9,690 nt of DNA from a bacterium (GTDB taxonomy: Bacteria > SZUA-182 > DTGQ01), in NCBI GenBank assembly GCA_040755755.1, contig JBFLZW010000083.1:1-9690 (forward strand), read 5' to 3'. The notes under the pieces were generated by a model. It was not told the origin of the DNA and searched no databases. It was given only the letters and a program-made list of their open reading frames with translations. Below are positions 1-9,690 of the stretch, in pieces; position 1 is the stretch's first letter, and every line of letters begins with the position of its first letter. Made by a program: the position numbers and the translations under genes.

Positions 1-265
1 GATAGGTCTTGCGCGGATCCCAGGTCAGACCGGGCTGTACGGGCAGAACGGTGCTCGGCTTGAGGTTACTGACAATCGGGGTGGGAAGTCCGGTCAGAGG
101 ATTAGTCGGCGAAAGAGGCGGAGACCATAGCGGCCATAAGGTATTATAAGGTGGGAGGTTGATCCAGTTCGCTGCCTGAACCATCGATGATGAAATCAAA
201 ACCAATCCCATGAGGATTGCCAAACTCAAGACAACTCTCTTTAACCAATTTTTTTTCAAATTCAT
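1..265 (-). CDS. Secreted proline-rich protein, 5' part only
   Basis: The first 88 codons of a gene reading leftwards out of the window. The protein opens MNLKKNWLKRVVLSLAIL, a basic n-region followed by a hydrophobic core to about residue 27. A likely signal-peptidase site falls after MVQA or MVQAA (residues 28-32), so the product is probably exported. The visible mature part is rich in Pro, Leu, Trp and Thr (NWINLPPYNTLWPLWSPP, then PLTGLPTPIVSNLKPSTVLP) and contains no cysteine. The start is supported by AAGGAG (complement of 275-280), 9 nt ahead of the ATG. It shares strand with the small cysteine-rich gene upstream, 211 bp away, and could lie on the same transcript. I recognise no family. 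A cell-surface or matrix role is suggested only by export and by its neighbours. Confidence 0.85.
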   Translation of the reverse strand, partial: MNLKKNWLKRVVLSLAILMGLVLISSSMVQAANWINLPPYNTLWPLWSPPLSPTNPLTGLPTPIVSNLKPSTVLPVQPGLTWDPRKTY

Positions 266-476: not shown

Positions 477-653
477 TTAATAATACATGTTGCCGCACTT
501 AGCGCATCTTCCATCACCCCCTTTCCAGCAGAGGCATGCGTATCTTTTATCGCTGTCTCGCCGCAGTTTGCAATCCCGGCAGATACCCGGTATCGATCCA
601 TAAATTCTCTGATCATAAATATCATGGTCATAAATTTTATGACCACCAGACAT
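477..653 (-). CDS. Small six-cysteine zinc-ribbon-like protein, 58 aa
   Basis: The frame runs from ATG at 653 to TAA at 477 and encodes 58 residues. An in-frame TGA lies only 18 nt upstream of the ATG, and AGAGG (complement of 661-665) sits 7 nt ahead of it, so the start is well defined. The N-terminal third is a Tyr/Asp-rich stretch with IYD, IYD and IYG in series (residues 7-19). The C-terminal half carries six cysteines as C25-x2-C28-x11-C40-x-C42-x7-C50-x2-C53, in the context ICRDCK, ACLCWKGGDG and RCAKCGN. Two CxxC knuckles flanking a CxC are typical of zinc-binding ribbons or small metal-binding proteins. There is no signal peptide, so it is probably cytoplasmic. A longer 67-codon frame overlaps it (455-658), but that frame lacks the paired-cysteine pattern. 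A candidate sigma-54 promoter lies about 210 bp upstream. The family is not recognised; metal binding is inferred from cysteine spacing alone. Confidence 0.6.
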   Translation of the reverse strand: MSGGHKIYDHDIYDQRIYGSIPGICRDCKLRRDSDKRYACLCWKGGDGRCAKCGNMYY

Positions 654-1035
654 AGCACTGCCTCTACCTCACCGCATGAAGAAAATCACAGCAAAGCCTT
701 ATACAAGACTCTCCCTGAGCGATGGAGGGCCATGATCAGGCTAGTTTGTTACTCCATTAATTAAAGATTTCTTCAGGGAAGAATTTTTACAGAATAAATA
801 CGATAGAAAAAACTACCATCAAGATTTGGTAATTGCCAGATTCGATCTGTCTCTCAGAACGTATTTTATAATATGCATTTAATATGCCAAATTATTACAA
901 AGAAAACCAATCTTAACAAATTATTGATTTAGCTATAATTATATGCCTTGCCACCCGGACAGGATATGACGCGCGACAGACAAACTATAGGAAAAAGATT
1001 ACACATATGAAAAAAAATTAACTATCTCCATTCAA
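654..1035. other. AT-rich intergenic region between two minus-strand genes
   Basis: This 382-bp gap holds the 5' leader and candidate sigma-54 promoter (874-889) of the 58-codon gene. At its right end lies the region downstream of the sulfatase/TPR gene. There, an A-run on the plus strand (1011-1018), read as a T-run on the minus strand, follows a weak CAATgATTG palindrome. That is a poor candidate terminator. I found no convincing small gene on either strand. Confidence 0.4.
874..889 (-). promoter_or_regulatory. Candidate sigma-54 (-24/-12) promoter for the Cys-rich gene
   Basis: The minus strand reads TGGCATATTAAATGCA. GG and GC are separated by exactly 10 bases, and the site keeps TGGCA and TGCA of the consensus TGGCACG-N4-TTGCW; positions 6, 7 and 12 deviate. 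The predicted start is near 863, leaving a leader of about 210 nt before the ATG at 653. It is weaker than the sites at 4127 and 9208. Confidence 0.4.
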
Positions 1036-3981
1036 TCATTGATTTTCACTTCCCAGGGAGGATTGAATCTGGTCCAGAAGATCCTTGGCTGGCTGAAAAT
1101 CCGGTTTGACCCGCAAGGCTGCCTGCAGGTATTCGATACCCCTGGACAGATCCTGCTTCCACAGATAACAGTTAGCCATATGAAAGTACGTGACCGGATT
1201 GTCCGGGTTGTTCTGTATCGCCTGGCTGTATTCGGCAATGGCCCGATCAAATTCCTTCTGCTGAAAAAAAGTGAATCCCAAATTGATATGGGCAGCCTCG
1301 TTGGCTGGATCGATCTCCAGGATGCGCCTGCATTCTTCTATCCCCAGGTCTGTCTGCCCCAGTGCAAAGTACAGCAGGCTGAGTTTGATATGTGCATTCA
1401 GATGCCTGGCATCTTTGACCAGAACCTGTTTATAGATGTTGATGGCCTGCTCACTGTCTCCCTTATCCTGACAGGCTAATCCCAGTTGAAACAGGGTATC
1501 AATGTTGTCCGGATCAAGTTTCAGGGCAGACTGATAGGCATCGATAGCCTGGTCGAATTTTTGCTGATGGTGAAAGGTAACACCCAGACTGATGCGGGCC
1601 TTCAGATTTCCGGGATCAAGCTCAATGGCTTTTTGCAGCGATTGAACTGCCCGGTCGGAATCATTGAGACGAGAGTAGCACAGACCCAGGTTATAGAGAA
1701 TCTCGGCAGACCCCGGCTCCAGTTGCTGCGCTTTCTGGAACTGCCGGAGCGCCTGAGAATAATCCTCCTCTTTCAAAGAGATTATGCCCAGGGCATTATA
1801 CGCCTTGGCCACATCGGGATCGATTTCCTGAACCCGGCTGATCTCCTGTCTGGCCAGGCTGTATTCCTCCTTCTGAATGTGAACGTCTGCCAGGTTCAGC
1901 AGGGTATCGACTCTCCGGGAATCGAATTTTAAAGCCTGCCGTATCTTTTCTTCCGCCTCGGTAATCTTTCCCTGAGCGAGATAAATGGCTCCCAGAGTAT
2001 TGTAGGCATCCACGTTCTGGGGATCAAGCTCAATCGCCTTCCCGGCATGCTGAAGAGCGGCTGCATAATCCTTCTTTGCCAGATAAACACCGGCCAGGCC
2101 CCGCAGGGCCTCGATGTGCCTGGCATCCCTTTTCAAAGCCTCGTGAAAAGCCTCGATGGCCTTGTCGTATTCACCGCTGTAACTGTAGAGAACACCCAGA
2201 TTTTGATAGATCTCGATAGATTCAGGATCCAGTTTCCGGGCTTTCTCGATCTGCTCGAAGGCTTTCTCTTTCTGCCCCAGCTTCAAATACACCCCTCCCA
2301 GGTTGACATATCCGTTCAGGTAAGCCGGATCGAGACGGATGCATTCCAGAAATTCGTCCCGTGCCTTCTCGAATTGTCCGGTTTTGTTATAGATGAAACC
2401 AATCATAAAGTGAGCGAATACATCCTTGGGATCGATCTCCAGGCTCTTATGGAAAAAGCCGATAGCCTGGTCATATTCGTAGCGCAGGTAATGATAGGCA
2501 GCCACATTGAAATAGTTGAGAACGACGACCATATCCTTGGGATCCGGATAATTACCGATCTCCTTTTTTACGGGATCCTCCTGCGCCGGTGCGGTCCACA
2601 GATACCCCAGGCGTTCGAGCCTGCGCCGGGTATCCTCATCCATGACCATCACGTGGGCTTTTTCCCGGGAGCCCTGGAGTGAATACTTTTTTTTCATTCC
2701 ATCCAGGAGCTTCTCCATAACCGCGACCTGGTCCTGGCGGTAGGAAAAGAGGTTGGAAAGCTCCCGTGGATCGTTTGCAAGCTGGTAAAGCTCGGGTTTC
2801 GGGGCCTTGACATACTTCCACTCCGATGTTCTCACTCCCTGAAGCGGGCTCCAGTGATGATTATAGAAGGGGAAATAGGTTTCACAGTAAATCGCCTCCT
2901 TATCCGGATCCTGGGAAGAAGCCTGTCCCGCTGCTGTCTTCATCGACCAGAGAGACTCACCCTGCATTTTGGAATCGGCCAGATGAATCCCGGCCATATC
3001 CAGAATCGTGGGCGCAATACTCACACTGCTCACCTGACGCAGGAAACGCTCAGCACGGGGAATTTTTTCCGGATACCTGATGATAAGAGGGACATGAATG
3101 GTGCTGTCATAGACAAAAACTGAATGACTCGGCTCCCCATGCTCTCCAAGGCTCTCGCCATGGTCCGCTGTAAAGCAGATCAAAGTCTGGTCGAAAATTC
3201 CCAGCTCTTTCATCTTCTCAAACAGCCTGCCCAGGCAATCGTCGGTATAGGCGATTTCCTGGTCATAACAGGAAGCCAGATTGGCCGGGTCATCGCAGCC
3301 CTCTATTCCCCTCCCGTAAGGTGCAGGGGCATGATAGGGCGCATGGGGATCGAAGCAATGAATGAAGAGGAAAAACGGGCCGGGCTGCTTCTGGTCCAGC
3401 CAGTTACCGGCAGCCCCGATAACCTCTTCAGCCCGCCTCTCTTCAAACAGCAGGTCCGATTTCTTCCCCTCCAACTCCATCTGGTCATCATAAATGTCAA
3501 ACCCCTGGTCAAGGCCAAAGCGGGAGTCGAGCACAAAGGCCCCCACAAAGGCAGCGGTTTGATACCCCTTGCTTTTTAAAATCTCGGCCAGGGTCAGGCT
3601 CTCCTCTCCGAGACGGAAGGTCCCGTTGTCCCGGACATTATGGGCCAGAGGATACTGCCCGGTCATCAGGGTGGCATGACTGGGGAGGGTAATCGGAACC
3701 GGCGTGTAACAGGAAGTAACCAGCATACCCTCTCTGGCCAGATGATCGATGTGAGGGGTCGGAATCCCCCGATATCCATAGCACCCCAGATGGTCGGCAC
3801 GCAGGGTATCGATCGAGATCAGAAGAATATTGGGAAGCGGCTTGAGGTTTTTTCTTTCTCCATCTCCCGGCACAAGGACATTCCTGCTGACCGGCTTCCT
3901 GGGCCAGCAGCCGGAACTCAAAGCAGCCATGAAGATAACCGTCAAAATAACAGCTCTTTTTCTCGAGTATGCTACCTGCAT
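1036..3981 (-). CDS. Putative lipoprotein: sulfatase/alkaline-phosphatase-fold domain fused to 14 TPRs
   Basis: The product has 981 residues. Residues 1-25 form a lipoprotein-like signal (RKR, hydrophobic 10-21, LSSGC with Cys25); the -3 Ser deviates from the usual lipobox. Residues 51 to about 435 are an alkaline-phosphatase-superfamily sulfatase domain: LISIDTLRADHLGCYG (metal ligands near D58), DPHAPY (211-216) and TADHGESLGEHG (D273, H274), followed by the substrate-side HVPLIIRYP. At the usual formylglycine site C-x-P-S-R the protein has T98-L-P-S-H102. It therefore cannot carry formylglycine and probably uses Thr98, as phosphodiesterases, phosphoglycerol transferases and phosphonate hydrolases of the superfamily do. 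From about 487 to the end there are 14 TPRs in strict 34-residue register: 'LDP' helix ends at 517, 551, 585 and so on to 959, with no insertion. The start is supported by AAGGAG (3996-3991), 9 nt before the ATG. It is divergent from the 999-codon gene and probably sits on the periplasmic or outer-membrane face. The substrate is unknown. Confidence 0.95.
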   Translation of the reverse strand: MQVAYSRKRAVILTVIFMAALSSGCWPRKPVSRNVLVPGDGERKNLKPLPNILLISIDTLRADHLGCYGYRGIPTPHIDHLAREGMLVTSCYTPVPITLPSHATLMTGQYPLAHNVRDNGTFRLGEESLTLAEILKSKGYQTAAFVGAFVLDSRFGLDQGFDIYDDQMELEGKKSDLLFEERRAEEVIGAAGNWLDQKQPGPFFLFIHCFDPHAPYHAPAPYGRGIEGCDDPANLASCYDQEIAYTDDCLGRLFEKMKELGIFDQTLICFTADHGESLGEHGEPSHSVFVYDSTIHVPLIIRYPEKIPRAERFLRQVSSVSIAPTILDMAGIHLADSKMQGESLWSMKTAAGQASSQDPDKEAIYCETYFPFYNHHWSPLQGVRTSEWKYVKAPKPELYQLANDPRELSNLFSYRQDQVAVMEKLLDGMKKKYSLQGSREKAHVMVMDEDTRRRLERLGYLWTAPAQEDPVKKEIGNYPDPKDMVVVLNYFNVAAYHYLRYEYDQAIGFFHKSLEIDPKDVFAHFMIGFIYNKTGQFEKARDEFLECIRLDPAYLNGYVNLGGVYLKLGQKEKAFEQIEKARKLDPESIEIYQNLGVLYSYSGEYDKAIEAFHEALKRDARHIEALRGLAGVYLAKKDYAAALQHAGKAIELDPQNVDAYNTLGAIYLAQGKITEAEEKIRQALKFDSRRVDTLLNLADVHIQKEEYSLARQEISRVQEIDPDVAKAYNALGIISLKEEDYSQALRQFQKAQQLEPGSAEILYNLGLCYSRLNDSDRAVQSLQKAIELDPGNLKARISLGVTFHHQQKFDQAIDAYQSALKLDPDNIDTLFQLGLACQDKGDSEQAINIYKQVLVKDARHLNAHIKLSLLYFALGQTDLGIEECRRILEIDPANEAAHINLGFTFFQQKEFDRAIAEYSQAIQNNPDNPVTYFHMANCYLWKQDLSRGIEYLQAALRVKPDFQPAKDLLDQIQSSLGSENQ

Positions 3982-4015
3982 ATATCCACTCTCCTTGAAT
4001 GTTGTCCAATAATTG

Positions 4016-4082
4016 ATCTGTCCATGATTCTATCAATACCATTTCCTTATAGAACAGGGGAGTATTGGTGATATGGACTGAT
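4016..4082. promoter_or_regulatory. Dyad upstream of the sigma-54 promoter, possible activator site
   Basis: Outer arms ATCTGTCCAT (4016-4025) and ATGGACTGAT (4073-4082) match in 9 of 10 positions as an inverted repeat. Inner arms CAATAC (4034-4039) and GTATTG (4062-4067) are perfect. The dyad spans about -137 to -71 relative to the start predicted from the promoter at 4127. That is where sigma-54 enhancer-binding proteins usually bind. It also lies between the divergent starts, so it could influence the sulfatase/TPR gene. It could alternatively be an RNA hairpin in the leader of that gene. Confidence 0.4.
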
Positions 4083-4104
4083 TTAACTATTTGTTCTTAT
4101 TATG

Positions 4105-4121
4105 TTTTACCTTTGGTAAAA
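4105..4121. promoter_or_regulatory. Perfect inverted repeat just upstream of the -24 box
   Basis: TTTTACC (4105-4111), spacer TTT, GGTAAAA (4115-4121): 7-bp perfect arms ending 5 bp before the -24 element at 4127. This is a plausible operator for a dimeric regulator or an architectural protein. The symmetric AT-rich composition makes chance possible. Confidence 0.3.
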
Positions 4122-4126
4122 ACTTA

Positions 4127-4142
4127 TGGCACAGTTATTGCT
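4127..4142 (+). promoter_or_regulatory. Sigma-54 promoter for the propeller/repeat protein
   Basis: TGGCACAGTTATTGCT matches the consensus TGGCACG-N4-TTGCW at every defined position except position 7. GG and GC are 10 bases apart. The predicted transcription start is near 4153, giving a leader of about 73 nt before the gene at 4226. Together with the dyads just upstream, this is the best-supported promoter in the window. Confidence 0.75.
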
Positions 4143-4225
4143 CTCCCTGTGAGCTGAAACAAGAACCGGACGATGGGTTCCCTGTTCATGATGACGTACC
4201 GGCATCATAATATCCTGAAAGAAAG

Positions 4226-7225
4226 GTGATGAGACAGTTGAATAGGCTTATTTCCCGTATCCGTGAAAAAATCCATTTTATCACTTCATCGGCATTCTTG
4301 ATAGTGACAATCTTTCTTTCCGGGTCCTTTCTCTTCTTCACCTCTTCCCTGCCTGTTTATGGCTTGTACTTGGAACACGTCCTGGTCAGCGGAGGAAATC
4401 TCGATCAAATCCATCCCCAGGCTGCCTATTCAGGGCAGGGAACGATGCTGGTGGTCTGGGAAAACCTCAACAATGGAACATCCGATATCTACGGCCTTAT
4501 TCAGACCAACAATCAGCAGCAGCAGGCAACACCTTTTCCCATCTGTACTGCCCAGGGCGATCAGAGATCCCCGGCAGTAGCCTGGAACGGAAACAGCTAT
4601 CTCGTCATCTGGGAAGATACCCGCAACGGGAATGCCGATATCTACGGCACGAGGATAAACAGCACGGGCAGTGTCCTGGACAGCCCTGCTTCCCAGGGGG
4701 GCGGTGTGCCCATCTGCACGGTCGGTAATGACCAGATTCTGCCTGCTCTGGCCTGGAACGGCCAGGATCAGAATTACCTGGTCATCTGGCAGGACTACCG
4801 GACCACGCCAGCCAAAATTTATGGCATGAGGCTGACCGCCAATATGCAATTGCTCGATGGCACTGCCGCAAACGGCGGCCTGCTCATCGCCGCAGGCGGA
4901 GGGACAAATCCTCACCTGGCCTTTAACGGAACAGGTTATCTTGTGGTCTGGGAATACCAGACCAGTGAATCCTCCTGTGATATTTATGGCTGCCGGATAT
5001 CTCCATCGGGGCAGGTAACAGGCAGTCCGGCAATACCCATTTGCATAGGCGAGGATCTGAAATTCAATCCCATGGCCGTTTCAGACGGGCTGGATTTTCT
5101 GGTAGTCTGGGACGTCCATCTCCTGGATAATTTTACCGATATAGCGGGCATTCTGGTTTCCGCTGATGGGACCCCCGACTCCCGGGGGCCTTTTTTCATC
5201 GCCGAGGCCCTGCAGAACCAGACGAATCCTTCAGCCACATGGTGTGGAAATCATTACCTGGTAGCCTGGAAGGATGGCCGGTTCGGGAAACCTGAAATCT
5301 GCTCTGTCCGCCTGAGCAGCGCAGGCAGTTTTCTTGACAGTCAGAGCAGGTTTTCCGATTCCAATCTGCTGCATTTATGGGGTTTTTCACGCCTGGACTC
5401 TCCCGTTGCAGCCATATATAAGGCCGACACTAAAGAATATATGCTCCTCTGGGAGGAGAACCAGACGAATAATTATGATATCTATTCCTATCGCTTTCAG
5501 GCCACTCCTCCTCCGGTCCTTTCCTGGACCGGAGAGACCAATTATCAGAACGGCGGGGTCAATCCGGCCAGCGGCCCGGCGGGGACTTCCTTTGAGTTTC
5601 GGGTCAAATACCAGAACACGAGCGGCTCCCGCCCCCAAAAGTTTCAAGTCTGGATCGATCAGGATGACGATGGCATCTATTATATCAATCCGGCCAGTCC
5701 GATTAAGGATAAAATCATAGACATGGAGGAGTTGGGAAATAATTATCTCCAGGGAGTTATCTACAAAGCCACAACCCCCGTGGAATATGTCGGTACCGGA
5801 GATGGCAGAATCAACTACCGGTTTGTTTTCAGCGACGGAACAAATGAGGCAACGGGAGAACCGACCAAGAGTCATCAGGTTCTCCTGGGGAACAGCCCTC
5901 CCGCTCTGGAGTGGATGACCACTGCCGGATATGAGTCAGACGGAGTAAGTCCGGACACTGCCCCGGCAGGCACAGCCTTTACTTTTAAGGTCCGCTATCG
6001 CGATCTGGAGAATGAGTCGCCTGCCGTCACCGAGGTGTGGGTCGATGTAAACCGCAACAATACCTATGAGCAGGATGAAAAATTTCTCATGGAGGCCATC
6101 GATACTCAAAGCTTTTCTGCAGGCCGTGGATATCAGAAGTCGATTTCCTGCCTGTATCTGCCGGACTCGAATACGGTCGGCACAGTCAGTATCAAGTACC
6201 GTTTCAATTTTACCTGCGGCAATACTCCGGTCGCAGGAGAACCCGCGAACGATCATACCTTTTCCCTGACTCCCTATCTCTCCGTACCCGTTCTCTCCTG
6301 GGTCAGCGAGCCCGGATTCACCAAGGGTGTTCGCTTCAGGGGTGAAGCGGCAGGAAAAAACTACGAATTTCAGATCTCCTATCAGGATCAGGACAATGAT
6401 CTTCCGGCCACACAAGAGGTCTGGATTGACGAGAATGGAGACAATAACTTCAGCCAGAATGAAAAGCATGTCATGGAAGCGCTGACCCCGTCAGATACGG
6501 TTACAGCAGATGGCAAGATCTATCGTCTTCTGATTAACATCGTCTCTTCGGCAGCAGGCAGCATCTCGTATAAGTTCGTCTTCTCGGATGGGAAAAACAT
6601 GGCTATCGGCGAGCCTTTTCTGAGTGTCTCACAGCTTGCAGTCAGCTCTCCCGTTTATCTGACCTGGACCGGAGAGCAGGGTTATCTCCAGGATGGGGTT
6701 AATCCGGACAGCGGTCCTGGCCGGTCCCAGTTTCAGTTTCAATTTCAGGTGCAATATGTCAATTTGCACGATTTCCCCCCAAAAACCAAGAAACTATGGC
6801 TGGACGTAAACAATGATGGTATCTACCAGGGGGCCGAAGTCCACGACATGGAAGAGCTTGATCCCCTCGATATGGTCTATTCCGATGGCAAGATATATAC
6901 GAAATCGTTATCGATAGTTCCTTCAATAACGCCGCCGGTCAGTCTGAAATACCAGTTTATCTTTCAGGATATTTATTCCGAAGAGGCTACCGGCGAACCA
7001 GCGCAGGGCTTGAAGAGCGTGCTTGTCCTGGATCCGAATGCCCTGGCAGATCCCAATACCCCGGATCCGGATTCAGATCCCAACAGTCCCGATGACCCGG
7101 ATGGTACGGCTAATCCGGCTGATCTCTCTCATTCTTCCACCAGTGATGTGCACCGGGAGCTCAAATCATCCCAGGGAGGATGCTTCATCCGGTCCCTGCT
7201 GAAGAGATATTCCCTGCGCCGGTAG
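4226..7225 (+). CDS. Secreted seven-repeat propeller protein with four Ca-loop modules and a GGC tail
   Basis: The product has about 999 residues. Residues 1-46 are a long signal peptide (basic RLISRIREK, hydrophobic 21-40, possible cleavage after VYG). Residues 62-425 hold seven repeats of the 'YLVVWED...DIYG.R' type, with conserved Trp at 78, 129, 188, 242, 295, 348 and 409. This is the number expected for a seven-bladed beta-propeller. Four related beta modules follow (about 428-556, 557-686, 687-806, 807-935). Each starts '(L)SWTGE..Y..GVNP..GPAG..FEF' or a variant, carries a Trp-x-Asp loop such as WIDQDDDGIY (476-485), WVDVNRNNTY, WIDENGDNNF or WLDVNNDGIY, and ends near 'YRFVFSDG...GEP'. 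The acidic loops look calcium-binding. A Pro/Asp-rich linker (936-963) precedes the tail GGCFIRSLLKRYSLRR. The start is unsure: GTG at 4226, ATG at 4229, or TTG at 4238, the last being best spaced from AAAGGTGA. Likely an extracellular or surface binding or adhesion protein; the ligand is unknown. Confidence 0.93.
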   Translation: MMRQLNRLISRIREKIHFITSSAFLIVTIFLSGSFLFFTSSLPVYGLYLEHVLVSGGNLDQIHPQAAYSGQGTMLVVWENLNNGTSDIYGLIQTNNQQQQATPFPICTAQGDQRSPAVAWNGNSYLVIWEDTRNGNADIYGTRINSTGSVLDSPASQGGGVPICTVGNDQILPALAWNGQDQNYLVIWQDYRTTPAKIYGMRLTANMQLLDGTAANGGLLIAAGGGTNPHLAFNGTGYLVVWEYQTSESSCDIYGCRISPSGQVTGSPAIPICIGEDLKFNPMAVSDGLDFLVVWDVHLLDNFTDIAGILVSADGTPDSRGPFFIAEALQNQTNPSATWCGNHYLVAWKDGRFGKPEICSVRLSSAGSFLDSQSRFSDSNLLHLWGFSRLDSPVAAIYKADTKEYMLLWEENQTNNYDIYSYRFQATPPPVLSWTGETNYQNGGVNPASGPAGTSFEFRVKYQNTSGSRPQKFQVWIDQDDDGIYYINPASPIKDKIIDMEELGNNYLQGVIYKATTPVEYVGTGDGRINYRFVFSDGTNEATGEPTKSHQVLLGNSPPALEWMTTAGYESDGVSPDTAPAGTAFTFKVRYRDLENESPAVTEVWVDVNRNNTYEQDEKFLMEAIDTQSFSAGRGYQKSISCLYLPDSNTVGTVSIKYRFNFTCGNTPVAGEPANDHTFSLTPYLSVPVLSWVSEPGFTKGVRFRGEAAGKNYEFQISYQDQDNDLPATQEVWIDENGDNNFSQNEKHVMEALTPSDTVTADGKIYRLLINIVSSAAGSISYKFVFSDGKNMAIGEPFLSVSQLAVSSPVYLTWTGEQGYLQDGVNPDSGPGRSQFQFQFQVQYVNLHDFPPKTKKLWLDVNNDGIYQGAEVHDMEELDPLDMVYSDGKIYTKSLSIVPSITPPVSLKYQFIFQDIYSEEATGEPAQGLKSVLVLDPNALADPNTPDPDSDPNSPDDPDGTANPADLSHSSTSDVHRELKSSQGGCFIRSLLKRYSLRR

Positions 7226-7365
7226 TACTTGGCCGCGCTACCCAATCATACTCCCACACCACCACACAATAAATTATACCCTTAAAGTCATAGATATTTT
7301 CCTCCACCCTGCATAAAGGGATGATGCTGTATCCGGCAGTTGCCCCTCACTGCTGTTCATCCGGC

Positions 7366-7381
7366 TGGAACTAATTATGCA
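7366..7381 (+). promoter_or_regulatory. Candidate sigma-54 promoter for the small ORF/Tyr-rich gene pair
   Basis: TGGAACTAATTATGCA keeps the GG-N10-GC core, preceded by C, and the bases TGG-A-C and TGCA. It deviates at positions 4, 7 and 12 of the consensus. The predicted start is near 7392, so the leader would be about 205 nt and would include the 16-bp tandem array. Confidence 0.4.
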
Positions 7382-7497
7382 ACTGTGGCTTATCGGTTTA
7401 ATCATACAAGACGTTAAGGAGGGGAAAGAGAGTTTACTCAGAAAAAAGACATGGTTTTAAGCTGGAGGTCTGGGTTCTGAAAGTCAGGTTGAGTAAA

Positions 7498-7561
7498 GTC
7501 AGGGTTAGGCAAGGTTGAGGTTAGGTGAAGTTGAGGTTAGGTGAAGTTGAGGTTAGGTGGG
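7498..7561 (+). repeat. Short tandem array of a 16-bp unit
   Basis: GTTGAGGTTAGGTGAA occurs perfectly at 7514-7529 and 7530-7545. A third copy at 7546-7561 differs only in its last two bases. A diverged copy (GTCAGGGTTAGGCAAG) precedes them at 7498-7513, and a fainter one is at 7482-7497. The units are contiguous with no spacers, so this is not a CRISPR. It would be transcribed in the leader from the promoter at 7366. It may be a slippage-prone spacer or a set of binding sites. Confidence 0.8.
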
Positions 7562-7596
7562 GTAATTGTAATTGAACCAGCTCAAGGTTATAAAGG

Positions 7597-7719
7597 GTGA
7601 AAATCTGGCTGGGGAAATTTCTTGAAGCGACCATACTGTTTGCCCTCGGACGCATGGATTCTGAAGAAGGCAAGCCCGTTGGAAAAGCAAGCCCATATGA
7701 CGATACCATCAGCTCATGA
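7597..7719 (+). CDS. Small ORF, 40 aa, ahead of the Tyr-rich gene
   Basis: A GTG start at 7597 and TGA at 7717-7719 give a 40-residue product beginning MKIWLGKFLEATILFALGRM and ending ASPYDDTISS. An in-frame TAA lies 3 nt before the start. A weak purine-rich site (AAAGG, 7592-7596) abuts the GTG, and AAGG at 7584-7587 is better spaced. The first half is hydrophobic with two lysines, as in a short membrane-associated helix. The second half is polar (SEEGKPVGK). It stops 18 nt before the ATG of the next gene, whose ribosome-binding site is in the gap, so the two would be cotranscribed. It could be a genuine small membrane protein, a leader peptide coupled to the next gene, or a chance frame. 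I recognise no family. Confidence 0.4.
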   Translation: MKIWLGKFLEATILFALGRMDSEEGKPVGKASPYDDTISS

Positions 7720-7737
7720 CTGGAGGAAGTACAGACA

Positions 7738-8886
7738 ATGCTTAACAAACCTTATCTTTCAGTACAGCCGAAAGGAAAGGACAATATCCGGGTATTTCGT
7801 CTTTTTGTGAATACCCTGGTACTCGCCCTCATTTTCGGCACAACAGTCCGGATTGAATATGCTCACGGCTATTATGGCGTGCCCGGCAATTCATATTATC
7901 AGCCATCTGCCTCCGGCTACTATAATACCGGCAATACATACTCTGGTAACACTTATACTGGCTATCCTTATTCCTACAACAGCAACTCGTATACTCCATC
8001 ATCTTACTACTCGAATACCTCTGCTTATAGCACTGCATCACCCCAGAGTTATTATTACCAGAGTGGTTACAGTCCGTCGAGTGCTACCGCGTATACCACG
8101 CCGCAGTCTTCCTTTTATTATCCGAACAGCTATGCGGCTCAGAGTACGTATTCTCCTTATACATCTTATACATCCAGTGCCGCACAGGGATATTACGCCG
8201 GCGGCTCATCCGGCTACTACGCGGCATCGAATAATTCCTATTATGCCGGATCTTATGCTCCTGCCGCAAACGGTACCTCGTATTATTATCCGGCAGGCGC
8301 AACCTATTCTCCGAGCGCAGCTACCACCTACTATCGGGGTCCATATTCTACCGCCGGTTCAACTACCTATTATCCGGCTGCTCAAACCTATTATCCGGCC
8401 GCTGCAGGATATACTACCGCCGCCGTAACCGATATAACCGGTTCATATCAGGGCAGGTGGGTGAGAAACTACAGTTCCACCGGTGCACCAACCTCCGGAA
8501 GGACCACCAACACCGGTTCAATGCGGTCAAGCAATGGGACTACCTCTGCAACCGCCGGCACTTGCGGTGGCGGGGGCGGAGGCAATGGGACCGGTTTTCA
8601 GCCGATTACTCTTGAGCTGACACAGGTTGCGGCAGCCGTAAACGGCACCGTTACCTTCTTTTCCGATAATAGTGTCGTGAAAACGATTCCGGTGAATGGA
8701 ACACTGGAAAGCGGCGGTATTCTTAACCTTAACGGCACAACCGCTGGAAGTGTCTCTGACCCTATTCTTTACGGTATAAAAATTACTGCCACAGTCCAGG
8801 GGACATCCCTCCAGGGGGCCTATACCCTGACAAATACGGCAACCGGTACCAATATAGAATTAGGCACTTTTTCGGCAAGCAAATAG
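7738..8886 (+). CDS. Secreted tyrosine-rich low-complexity protein with C-terminal beta domain
   Basis: The product has 382 residues. The N-terminus has a long basic lead (KGKDNIRVFR) and a hydrophobic core (22-35), with a likely cleavage near YAHG (41-44). Residues 45-225 are low complexity: about a quarter Tyr, often as YY or YYY pairs, with Ser, Thr, Ala, Pro, Gly and Asn (units such as SYYYPAG, GYYAGG, TTYYPAA). Residues 228-382 form a different domain: ITGSYQGRWV, a Gly-rich stretch (CGGGGGG, single Cys276), then alternating strands with ITLELTQVAAAVNGTVTFFS, VNGTLESGGILNLNGT and LQGAYTLTNTATGT. This resembles small lipocalin-like 'G..W.G.W...L.L.Q.G..V.G' beta-barrel repeats. GGAGG (7722-7726) lies 11 nt before the ATG. 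Probably a structural surface or matrix protein; Tyr pairs could allow cross-linking or stacking, but that is conjecture. Confidence 0.9.
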   Translation: MLNKPYLSVQPKGKDNIRVFRLFVNTLVLALIFGTTVRIEYAHGYYGVPGNSYYQPSASGYYNTGNTYSGNTYTGYPYSYNSNSYTPSSYYSNTSAYSTASPQSYYYQSGYSPSSATAYTTPQSSFYYPNSYAAQSTYSPYTSYTSSAAQGYYAGGSSGYYAASNNSYYAGSYAPAANGTSYYYPAGATYSPSAATTYYRGPYSTAGSTTYYPAAQTYYPAAAGYTTAAVTDITGSYQGRWVRNYSSTGAPTSGRTTNTGSMRSSNGTTSATAGTCGGGGGGNGTGFQPITLELTQVAAAVNGTVTFFSDNSVVKTIPVNGTLESGGILNLNGTTAGSVSDPILYGIKITATVQGTSLQGAYTLTNTATGTNIELGTFSASK

Positions 8887-8898
8887 GCTCCCGTCATG

Positions 8899-8940
8899 AA
8901 ATCCAGGCAATATGCCTCATGAGGCATATTGCCTGGATTT
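8899..8940. terminator. 42-bp perfect palindrome after the Tyr-rich gene
   Basis: A perfect inverted repeat with 21-bp arms and centre tCA|TGa between 8919 and 8920 begins 12 bp after the TAG of the Tyr-rich gene. As RNA it would form a very stable hairpin with a minimal loop. The following bases (gcctttccct) are only moderately T-rich, so it is an imperfect intrinsic terminator. Equal alternatives are a 3'-end-protecting hairpin or a mobile palindromic repeat. Confidence 0.6.
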
Positions 8941-8985
8941 GCCTTTCCCTCCATGAGGCTCTCCACCCGCTCAGCCACCCCCAGG

Positions 8986-9030
8986 CTTTATCCTTGAATT
9001 CGATTTCGCTTGATAATGGATAAAGTTTTT
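8986..9030 (+). terminator. Possible intrinsic terminator, second after the Tyr-rich gene
   Basis: CTTTATCC (8986-8993) pairs perfectly with GGATAAAG (9018-9025) and is followed directly by TTTTT (9026-9030). The 24-nt loop is long and the stem is AT-rich, so it is weak. It could back up the palindrome at 8899-8940. Confidence 0.3.
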
Positions 9031-9207
9031 AGTATGCTAATTAATCGGAGAAAATCAGCTTCATAAGCCTTATGTCAGAGGTATAATAATTATCCTTAAT
9101 TGACAGTCTTGCAATACAGCATGAGCTCCCCAACCGGCAATACCTGAACGATTAAACAAAAGAGCGTATCCAATAATCCCGCAGCATTTTCTGTTGCCTG
9201 ATAATAC

Positions 9208-9223
9208 TGGCATTCCGATTGCA
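9208..9223 (+). promoter_or_regulatory. Sigma-54 promoter for the LYG-repeat gene
   Basis: TGGCATTCCGATTGCA, preceded by C, matches YTGGCACG-N4-TTGCW except at positions 6 and 7. GG and GC are 10 bases apart. The predicted start is near 9234, about 164 nt before the GTG start at 9398. Two direct GCAATAC copies lie 117 and 91 bp upstream of that start. CAATAC/GTATTG also forms the inner arms of the dyad upstream of the promoter at 4127, which hints at a shared activator. Confidence 0.65.
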
Positions 9224-9397: not shown

Positions 9398-9690
9398 GTG
9401 GAAAAAAAATGGTTTTTGAAGGCACTCGTGGTAGCTTTTTCAATATCAATCATAAGCTCATTAACCTCATCTGCCCATGCTCAACTGGGATTGAGCAGTC
9501 TCTACGGCAGCAGTCTCTACGGCAGCAGTCTCTATGGTAGTGGGCTCAGCAGCCTCTATGGCCGGGGTATCTATGGCGCTGGACTCTACGGCGGGCTCTA
9601 CGGCGGTGGACTCTACGGCGGCCTCAGCAGCCTCTATGGCGGTGGCCTCAGCAGCCTCTATGGCCGGGGTATCTACGGCGCTGGACTCTA
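9398..9690 (+). CDS. Secreted Leu-Tyr-Gly repeat protein, 5' part only
   Basis: The first 97 codons of a gene running off the right edge. The GTG start at 9398 is supported by GAGGGAG (9386-9392), 5 nt upstream. Residues 1-28 are a signal peptide (MEKKWFLKALVVAF, cleavage after SSAHA). From residue 29 the protein is built almost only of Gly, Ser, Leu and Tyr with a few Arg, Ile and Ala: SSLYG three times, then SGLSSLYGRGIYGAGLYG, GLYGGGLYG, GLSSLYGGG and so on. There are 11 complete (L/I)YG triplets before the edge. No cysteine or charged cluster is visible in the repeats. Such Gly/Tyr repeats are typical of extracellular structural or self-assembling proteins, but no named family is recognised. 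It appears to have its own sigma-54 promoter. Confidence 0.88.
   Translation, partial: MEKKWFLKALVVAFSISIISSLTSSAHAQLGLSSLYGSSLYGSSLYGSGLSSLYGRGIYGAGLYGGLYGGGLYGGLSSLYGGGLSSLYGRGIYGAGL
9494..9538 (+). repeat. Three 15-nt tandem copies encoding SSLYG
   Basis: AGCAGTCTCTACGGC is repeated at 9494-9508 and 9509-9523. A third copy at 9524-9538 differs by two silent third-position changes (TAC to TAT, GGC to GGT). Near-identity at the DNA level, beyond what the protein requires, points to recent slippage or expansion. Confidence 0.85.
9545..9690 (+). repeat. 102-nt higher-order repeat in the LYG gene
   Basis: The 44 bases at 9545-9588 recur at 9647-9690 with a single silent change. The period is therefore 102 nt (34 codons), encoding the LSSLYGRGIYGAGL block. 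The second copy is cut by the window edge, so more copies may follow. Confidence 0.8.

Follow-up and report, generated by a model that had tools for sequence, protein, structure and literature searches.

Three sites in the DNA analysed here, a window of 9690 nt that forms the beginning of the 78.7-kb contig C83, are in all likelihood (probability about 0.85, judged from sequence comparison) sigma-54 promoters and part of a larger RpoN regulon concerned with the cell exterior; the genes behind them would answer to another activator than the PEP-CTERM genes of that regulon. That the sites at 4127-4142 (plus strand), 874-889 (minus strand) and 9208-9223 (plus strand) are promoters of the -24/-12 type is well supported by the comparisons given below. 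The preliminary description, which proposed a sigma-54 regulon in this window, made it depend on the presence of an rpoN gene; the genome (5.26 Mb, 98% complete) carries one copy (E 2.6e-60) and dozens of activator-type (enhancer-binding) genes.

The window encodes a secreted repeat protein of the PPYNTLWPLWSP (PPYNTLWPLW) family, cut by the contig end (2-265, minus strand), a sulfatase-TPR protein (1036-3981, minus strand), a 999-aa secreted protein with beta-propeller-like repeats followed by GEVED-type repeats (ORF 4226; 4226-7225, plus strand), a 382-aa secreted Tyr/Ser/Pro-rich protein (ORF 7738; 7738-8886, plus strand) and a secreted GLYGG-repeat protein (9398-9690 in the window, running to contig position 10249, plus strand).

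Sigma-54-like sites of the window

The four GG-N10-GC sites listed in the preliminary description were all found in the sequence, at its coordinates and on its strands. Site 4127 (TGGCACAGTTATTGCT) matches all 12 specified bases of TGGCACRNNNNTTGCW, sites 874 (TGGCATATTAAATGCA) and 9208 (TGGCATTCCGATTGCA) match 10 of the 12 each, and the weak site at 7366-7381 (plus strand; TGGAACTAATTATGCA) matches 9. The statement that 4127 and 9208 agree with the consensus at nine or more bases is therefore correct and both are indeed strong, but singling them out understated 874, which outranks 9208. The GG and GC dinucleotides at N10 spacing lie in a strong TGGCAC/TTGC context in 4127, 874 and 9208; site 7366 has the GG and GC, with a weak score. 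The same four sites come out as the four highest-ranking positions of the window when it is scanned with a weight matrix trained outside it. Trained on promoters from other contigs, the matrix gives 20.3 bits to 4127, 18.7 to 874, 17.5 to 9208 and 8.7 to 7366; with a slightly larger training set, the values are 21.7, 18.6, 15.5 and 8.2 bits, respectively.

The claim that such sites would hardly occur by chance holds for one way of counting but not for another. A blind count over the whole window, allowing up to three mismatches, reveals no enrichment (20 sites seen, 19.6 expected). By contrast, three intergenic and correctly oriented sites with at most two mismatches are present, while 0.20 are expected (P = 0.002, 2000 dinucleotide shuffles), and the expectation for a perfect site in such a position is 0.001 in shuffles of the same kind and number. 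Furthermore, nothing in the adjacent DNA (76 kb-strand) scores as high as 4127, 874 or 9208, whereas the score of 7366 is equalled or beaten there at five positions; thus, three sites stand above chance and 7366 is indistinguishable from background. Since 7366 is also absent from the orthologous region of the relative G001, its proposed role as a sigma-54 promoter was rejected on both grounds, the weak score (9/12, 8.2 bits) and the lack of conservation.

Conservation of the probable promoters and genes that they precede

Transcription of ORF 4226 from site 4127 is predicted to start at about position 4153. Orthologues of this ORF occur in four relatives, G001 to G004 (66, 54, 47 and 40% protein identity), and all of them are preceded by the site, which is letter-identical in G001 and G002 and reads TGGCATAGTTATTGCT in G003 (one mismatch) and TGGCATTTCAATTGCT in G004 (two mismatches). 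The flanking DNA has mostly diverged while the site itself is kept. Further upstream, with its first base 124 nt from the site, lies a conserved block, TGTCCAATAATTGATCTG (4003-4020, plus strand), which G001, G002 and G003 retain at a similar distance. In G001, this block is more than 400 nt away from the divergent sulfatase gene, suggesting that it belongs with the sigma-54 site and not with that gene; it is a candidate enhancer, likely the site at which an activator of 4127 would bind.

ORF 7738 is probably co-transcribed with ORF 4226, by read-through from 4127. This is the simpler reading because the stretch between the two genes revealed neither a terminator nor a stem, because they adjoin in G001 and G002 too, and because a 21-bp perfect palindrome (8899-8940, plus strand), likely the end of the unit, follows ORF 7738. 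The region between both ORFs also contains short tandem repeats of GTTGAGGTTAGGTGAA (7500-7560). The C-terminus of ORF 4226 (...QGGCFIRSLL) resembles the putative CFI-box sorting motif (NF041763), although it is below the cut-off of this family. The protein and two of its orthologues end in GGCFIRSLL or GCFISSLL, but two of these three scored 12.1 and 12.0 bits against a cut-off of 15.9 bits and the third gave no match. The GCFI-SLL ending is kept in three orthologues.

Site 874 precedes the PPYNTLW gene (ORF 2-265, minus strand), from which a leader of some 600 nt separates it, and is conserved in two relatives (TGGCATATTTAATGCA in G001 and TGGCATTTAAAATGCA in G003). In the same way, site 9208 lies 174 nt ahead of the GLYGG-repeat gene and is conserved in one relative, as TGGCATTTTGATTGCA ahead of the G001 orthologue (L241:1337), which is carried by a contig other than that of the 4226 orthologue. 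It could be argued that 4127 is alone in being a sigma-54 promoter and that 874 and 9208 resemble one by chance, their genes being expressed from sigma-70 promoters. Indeed, a sigma-70-like site (TTGGCA-16-TAAAAT, 10/12) overlaps 874, another one (TTCATA-16-TATAAT) is found at 9060-9087 ahead of gene 9398, and 10/12 matches to the sigma-54 consensus are common genome-wide. This explanation nevertheless appears improbable: both sites keep GG-N10-GC in the relatives while the spacer changes, the sigma-70-like -10 box at 874 is not kept in these relatives, and both sites have the scores relative to neighbouring DNA reported above.

The leader between 874 and the PPYNTLW gene includes a small Cys-rich ORF of 58 aa (MSGGHKIYDHDIYDQ..., 477-653, minus strand); a short counterpart, MPEGHKFYDHRIYDHKI, is found in G001 about 30 nt after its site. 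The length of the leader and the presence of this ORF count against the sigma-54 reading.

Distribution of predicted sigma-54 sites in the genome

Sites with at most one mismatch to the consensus number 119 genome-wide, compared to 38 when the two halves are moved 2 nt apart and 42 for the reversed pattern. The control by reversal is weak, because the genome G010, which is devoid of rpoN, gives nearly the same ratio (41 versus 16 reversed), and the plain count against the reversed pattern was therefore discarded as evidence. More informative is where the hits lie: 51 of 97 true hits are in promoter position, whereas the spacing control has 4 of 30 there (p 9e-5) and the reversed one 2 of 30. 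Products encoded downstream of hits have a signal-like N-terminus, according to a crude hydrophobicity test, in 28 cases out of 45, versus 13 out of 61 on C83 (p 2e-5).

An unbiased sample of 1.2 Mb, chosen without regard to sites and scanned with the matrix trained on other contigs, gave a similar picture. Strong sites are intergenic in 18 of 28 cases although 12.3% of the DNA is intergenic (p 1.6e-10). They precede 5 of the 14 genes encoding low-charge secreted proteins versus 14 of the 856 other genes (p 5e-6), the latter made up of 9 among 262 further genes for secreted or membrane proteins and 5 among the remaining 594; the cut-off of this low-charge class (6% charged residues) was not tuned, and the class was defined after the first hits had been seen, but for the most part on other contigs. 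Among the nine low-charge genes without a strong site, two are the second genes of a pair. Thus, the genome-wide scan with a weight matrix proposed in the preliminary description does place hits ahead of secreted genes, above all those for low-charge repeat proteins. The regulon of secreted repeat proteins proposed there is supported by this proportion (5/14 versus 14/856) and by the conservation of three sites, but it was drawn too narrowly on one side and too broadly on the other: other genes are included, and no more than about one repeat gene in three has a strong site in the sample. Surface proteins make up only part of the regulon, sites being also found ahead of glnB, dnaK, hsp20 and a number of regulator genes. 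The gene glnB is a classical target of sigma-54, and its site, like those ahead of PEP-CTERM genes, serves as an internal positive control.

The association with secreted genes might be a mere by-product of the long intergenic regions that precede them and offer more room for chance matches, as the distance from site to gene is 150 to 430 nt for many repeat-protein genes with a promoter, whose upstream regions are therefore long. This is very improbable: the enrichment remains when the comparison is limited to genes preceded by 100 nt or more of upstream DNA (5/13 low-charge secreted genes versus 14/482 others, p 5e-5), the spacing control made of the same half-sites shows no such association, and orthologous sites are conserved.

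Past the signal region, charged residues make up 0 to 5% of most repeat proteins encoded behind these sites, versus a median of 24% on C83. These repeat proteins are composed of about 45 to 60% Gly/Pro/Ser/Thr/Asn/Gln, often with more than 10% aromatic residues, and include the GLYGG, PPYNTLWPLWSP and Tyr/Ser/Pro types. ORF 4226, with 18% charged residues, is not of this type. The last residue of most low-charge secreted proteins is hydrophobic or aromatic (endings ALLL, AILL, FSWW, LYLF or ALGLW), possibly as a signal for sorting or folding.

Further along C83, genes that appear from their translations to encode polysaccharide export, glycosyltransferases and sugar-nucleotide enzymes start at 13.6 kb and continue as far as 46 kb or beyond. 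This group looks like an exopolysaccharide cluster, beginning about 4 kb downstream of the window, and a strong sigma-54 match (C83:13417, TGGCACTCGGTTTGCA) is located 182 nt ahead of its first gene (export). The same contig carries a repeat of about 5.6 kb present twice in tandem (C83:54018-65033), suspected to be an rRNA operon.

Activators and relationship to known systems

According to the proposed mechanism, RNA polymerase carrying RpoN would bind the GG and GC elements at -24/-12 in a closed complex, to be opened by an AAA+ enhancer-binding protein that acts from an upstream site; the secreted-protein genes of the window would thus be silent until a signal arrives. Site 4127 would drive ORF 4226 and, by read-through, ORF 7738, and the regulon of the cell exterior would gather low-charge secreted repeat proteins, PEP-CTERM proteins and the exopolysaccharide cluster. 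We infer from the sequences promoter activity, an activator, a shared signal and a role of these genes in an extracellular matrix. A more specific proposal, which we put forward tentatively, is that a dedicated sigma-54 circuit of this uncultured bacterial class, with its own enhancer-binding protein and apart from PrsR/exosortase, turns on near-uncharged secreted repeat proteins rich in aromatic residues, Gly, Pro, Ser and Thr, together with exopolysaccharide, as an extracellular matrix.

The closest known system is PEP-CTERM/EpsH with PrsK-PrsR (Haft 2006, PMC1569441; Aquincola pepA, PMC9850573), which also has sigma-54 promoters ahead of single secreted-protein genes, long upstream regions and a tie to exopolysaccharide loci. 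Moreover, this genome has genes of that kind outside the window: three matches to exosortase, seven to PEP-CTERM and two PrsR-like proteins over the family cut-off. However, neither Pfam nor NCBIfam gave a PEP-CTERM match for the window proteins. The preliminary view that these proteins lack such tails is thus upheld, except for the protein encoded at 2-265, whose C-terminus lies beyond the contig end.

The promoters differ as well. A perfect 17-nt palindrome, TGTAG-N7-CTACA, is found at four of the seven PEP-CTERM genes of this genome (stretches L280, L271, L262 and L257) and at PEP-CTERM loci of relatives from several genera (L256, L267, L268 and L282), including G002 and G004. In this genome, it is located about 50 to 95 nt before a sigma-54-like site and is in some cases repeated in tandem at an interval of about 82 nt. 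All exact copies within the 1.28 Mb scanned lie at PEP-CTERM promoters; the palindrome is the probable activator site of these genes. No copy was found on C83, window included, even when one mismatch was allowed. This suggests that the window genes share the sigma factor but probably not the activator with the PEP-CTERM genes. Placing the window genes in the same PrsK/PrsR circuit would agree with the shared sigma factor and genome, the two PrsR-like proteins and the presence of exosortase, but it seems unlikely given that the palindrome, found within about 100 nt of the site at four of seven PEP-CTERM genes, is missing from C83. The palindrome is similar to motif 1 of Haft 2006 (PMC1569441; 17 nt, mean spacer 63 nt) in length and distance, but the TTTACA end of that motif was not found in the upstream regions tested. 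The shared upstream motif was reported only in proteobacteria (PMC1569441).

Control of exterior genes by sigma-54 is already established (PMC3162934, PMC1569441, PMC9850573). As targets, the abstract of Francke 2011 (PMC3162934) names genes for the biosynthesis and transport of polysaccharide, flagella, lipids, lipopolysaccharide, lipoproteins and peptidoglycan. The RpoN promoters at exopolysaccharide and other exterior genes fit this view, while here low-charge secreted repeat proteins are prominent among the targets. A search of open-licence papers joining RpoN with exosortase or repeat proteins returned nothing on such a set. What is new here is the target class (near-uncharged secreted repeat proteins), the lineage and the split by enhancer. 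Several uncharacterised families of such proteins from an uncultured lineage are thereby tied to one switch and to an exopolysaccharide locus, which provides a first handle on their function, possibly a matrix or surface coat made on demand. In addition, two activator circuits under one sigma factor could be set apart, that of PEP-CTERM genes with TGTAG-N7-CTACA and that of window genes without it.

No enhancer sequence common to 4127, 874 and 9208 was found, a conserved candidate block lying ahead of 4127 alone, and this counts against the reading proposed here. Another palindrome, TGAAAA-N2-TTTTCA, is enriched (present in 5 of 27 upstream regions, including that of the polysaccharide promoter 13417, versus 0.18 expected), and 3 of its 17 genomic copies are near sigma-54-like sites. 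It was rejected as one enhancer for all promoters, being absent at those of the window and picked after the fact. As a lead only, a candidate activator for the window genes is the enhancer-binding protein encoded at C44:3424-4461 (within L174:1139-4461). Its gene has its own sigma-54 site, and so does the adjoining gene, which encodes a GLYGG-repeat protein.
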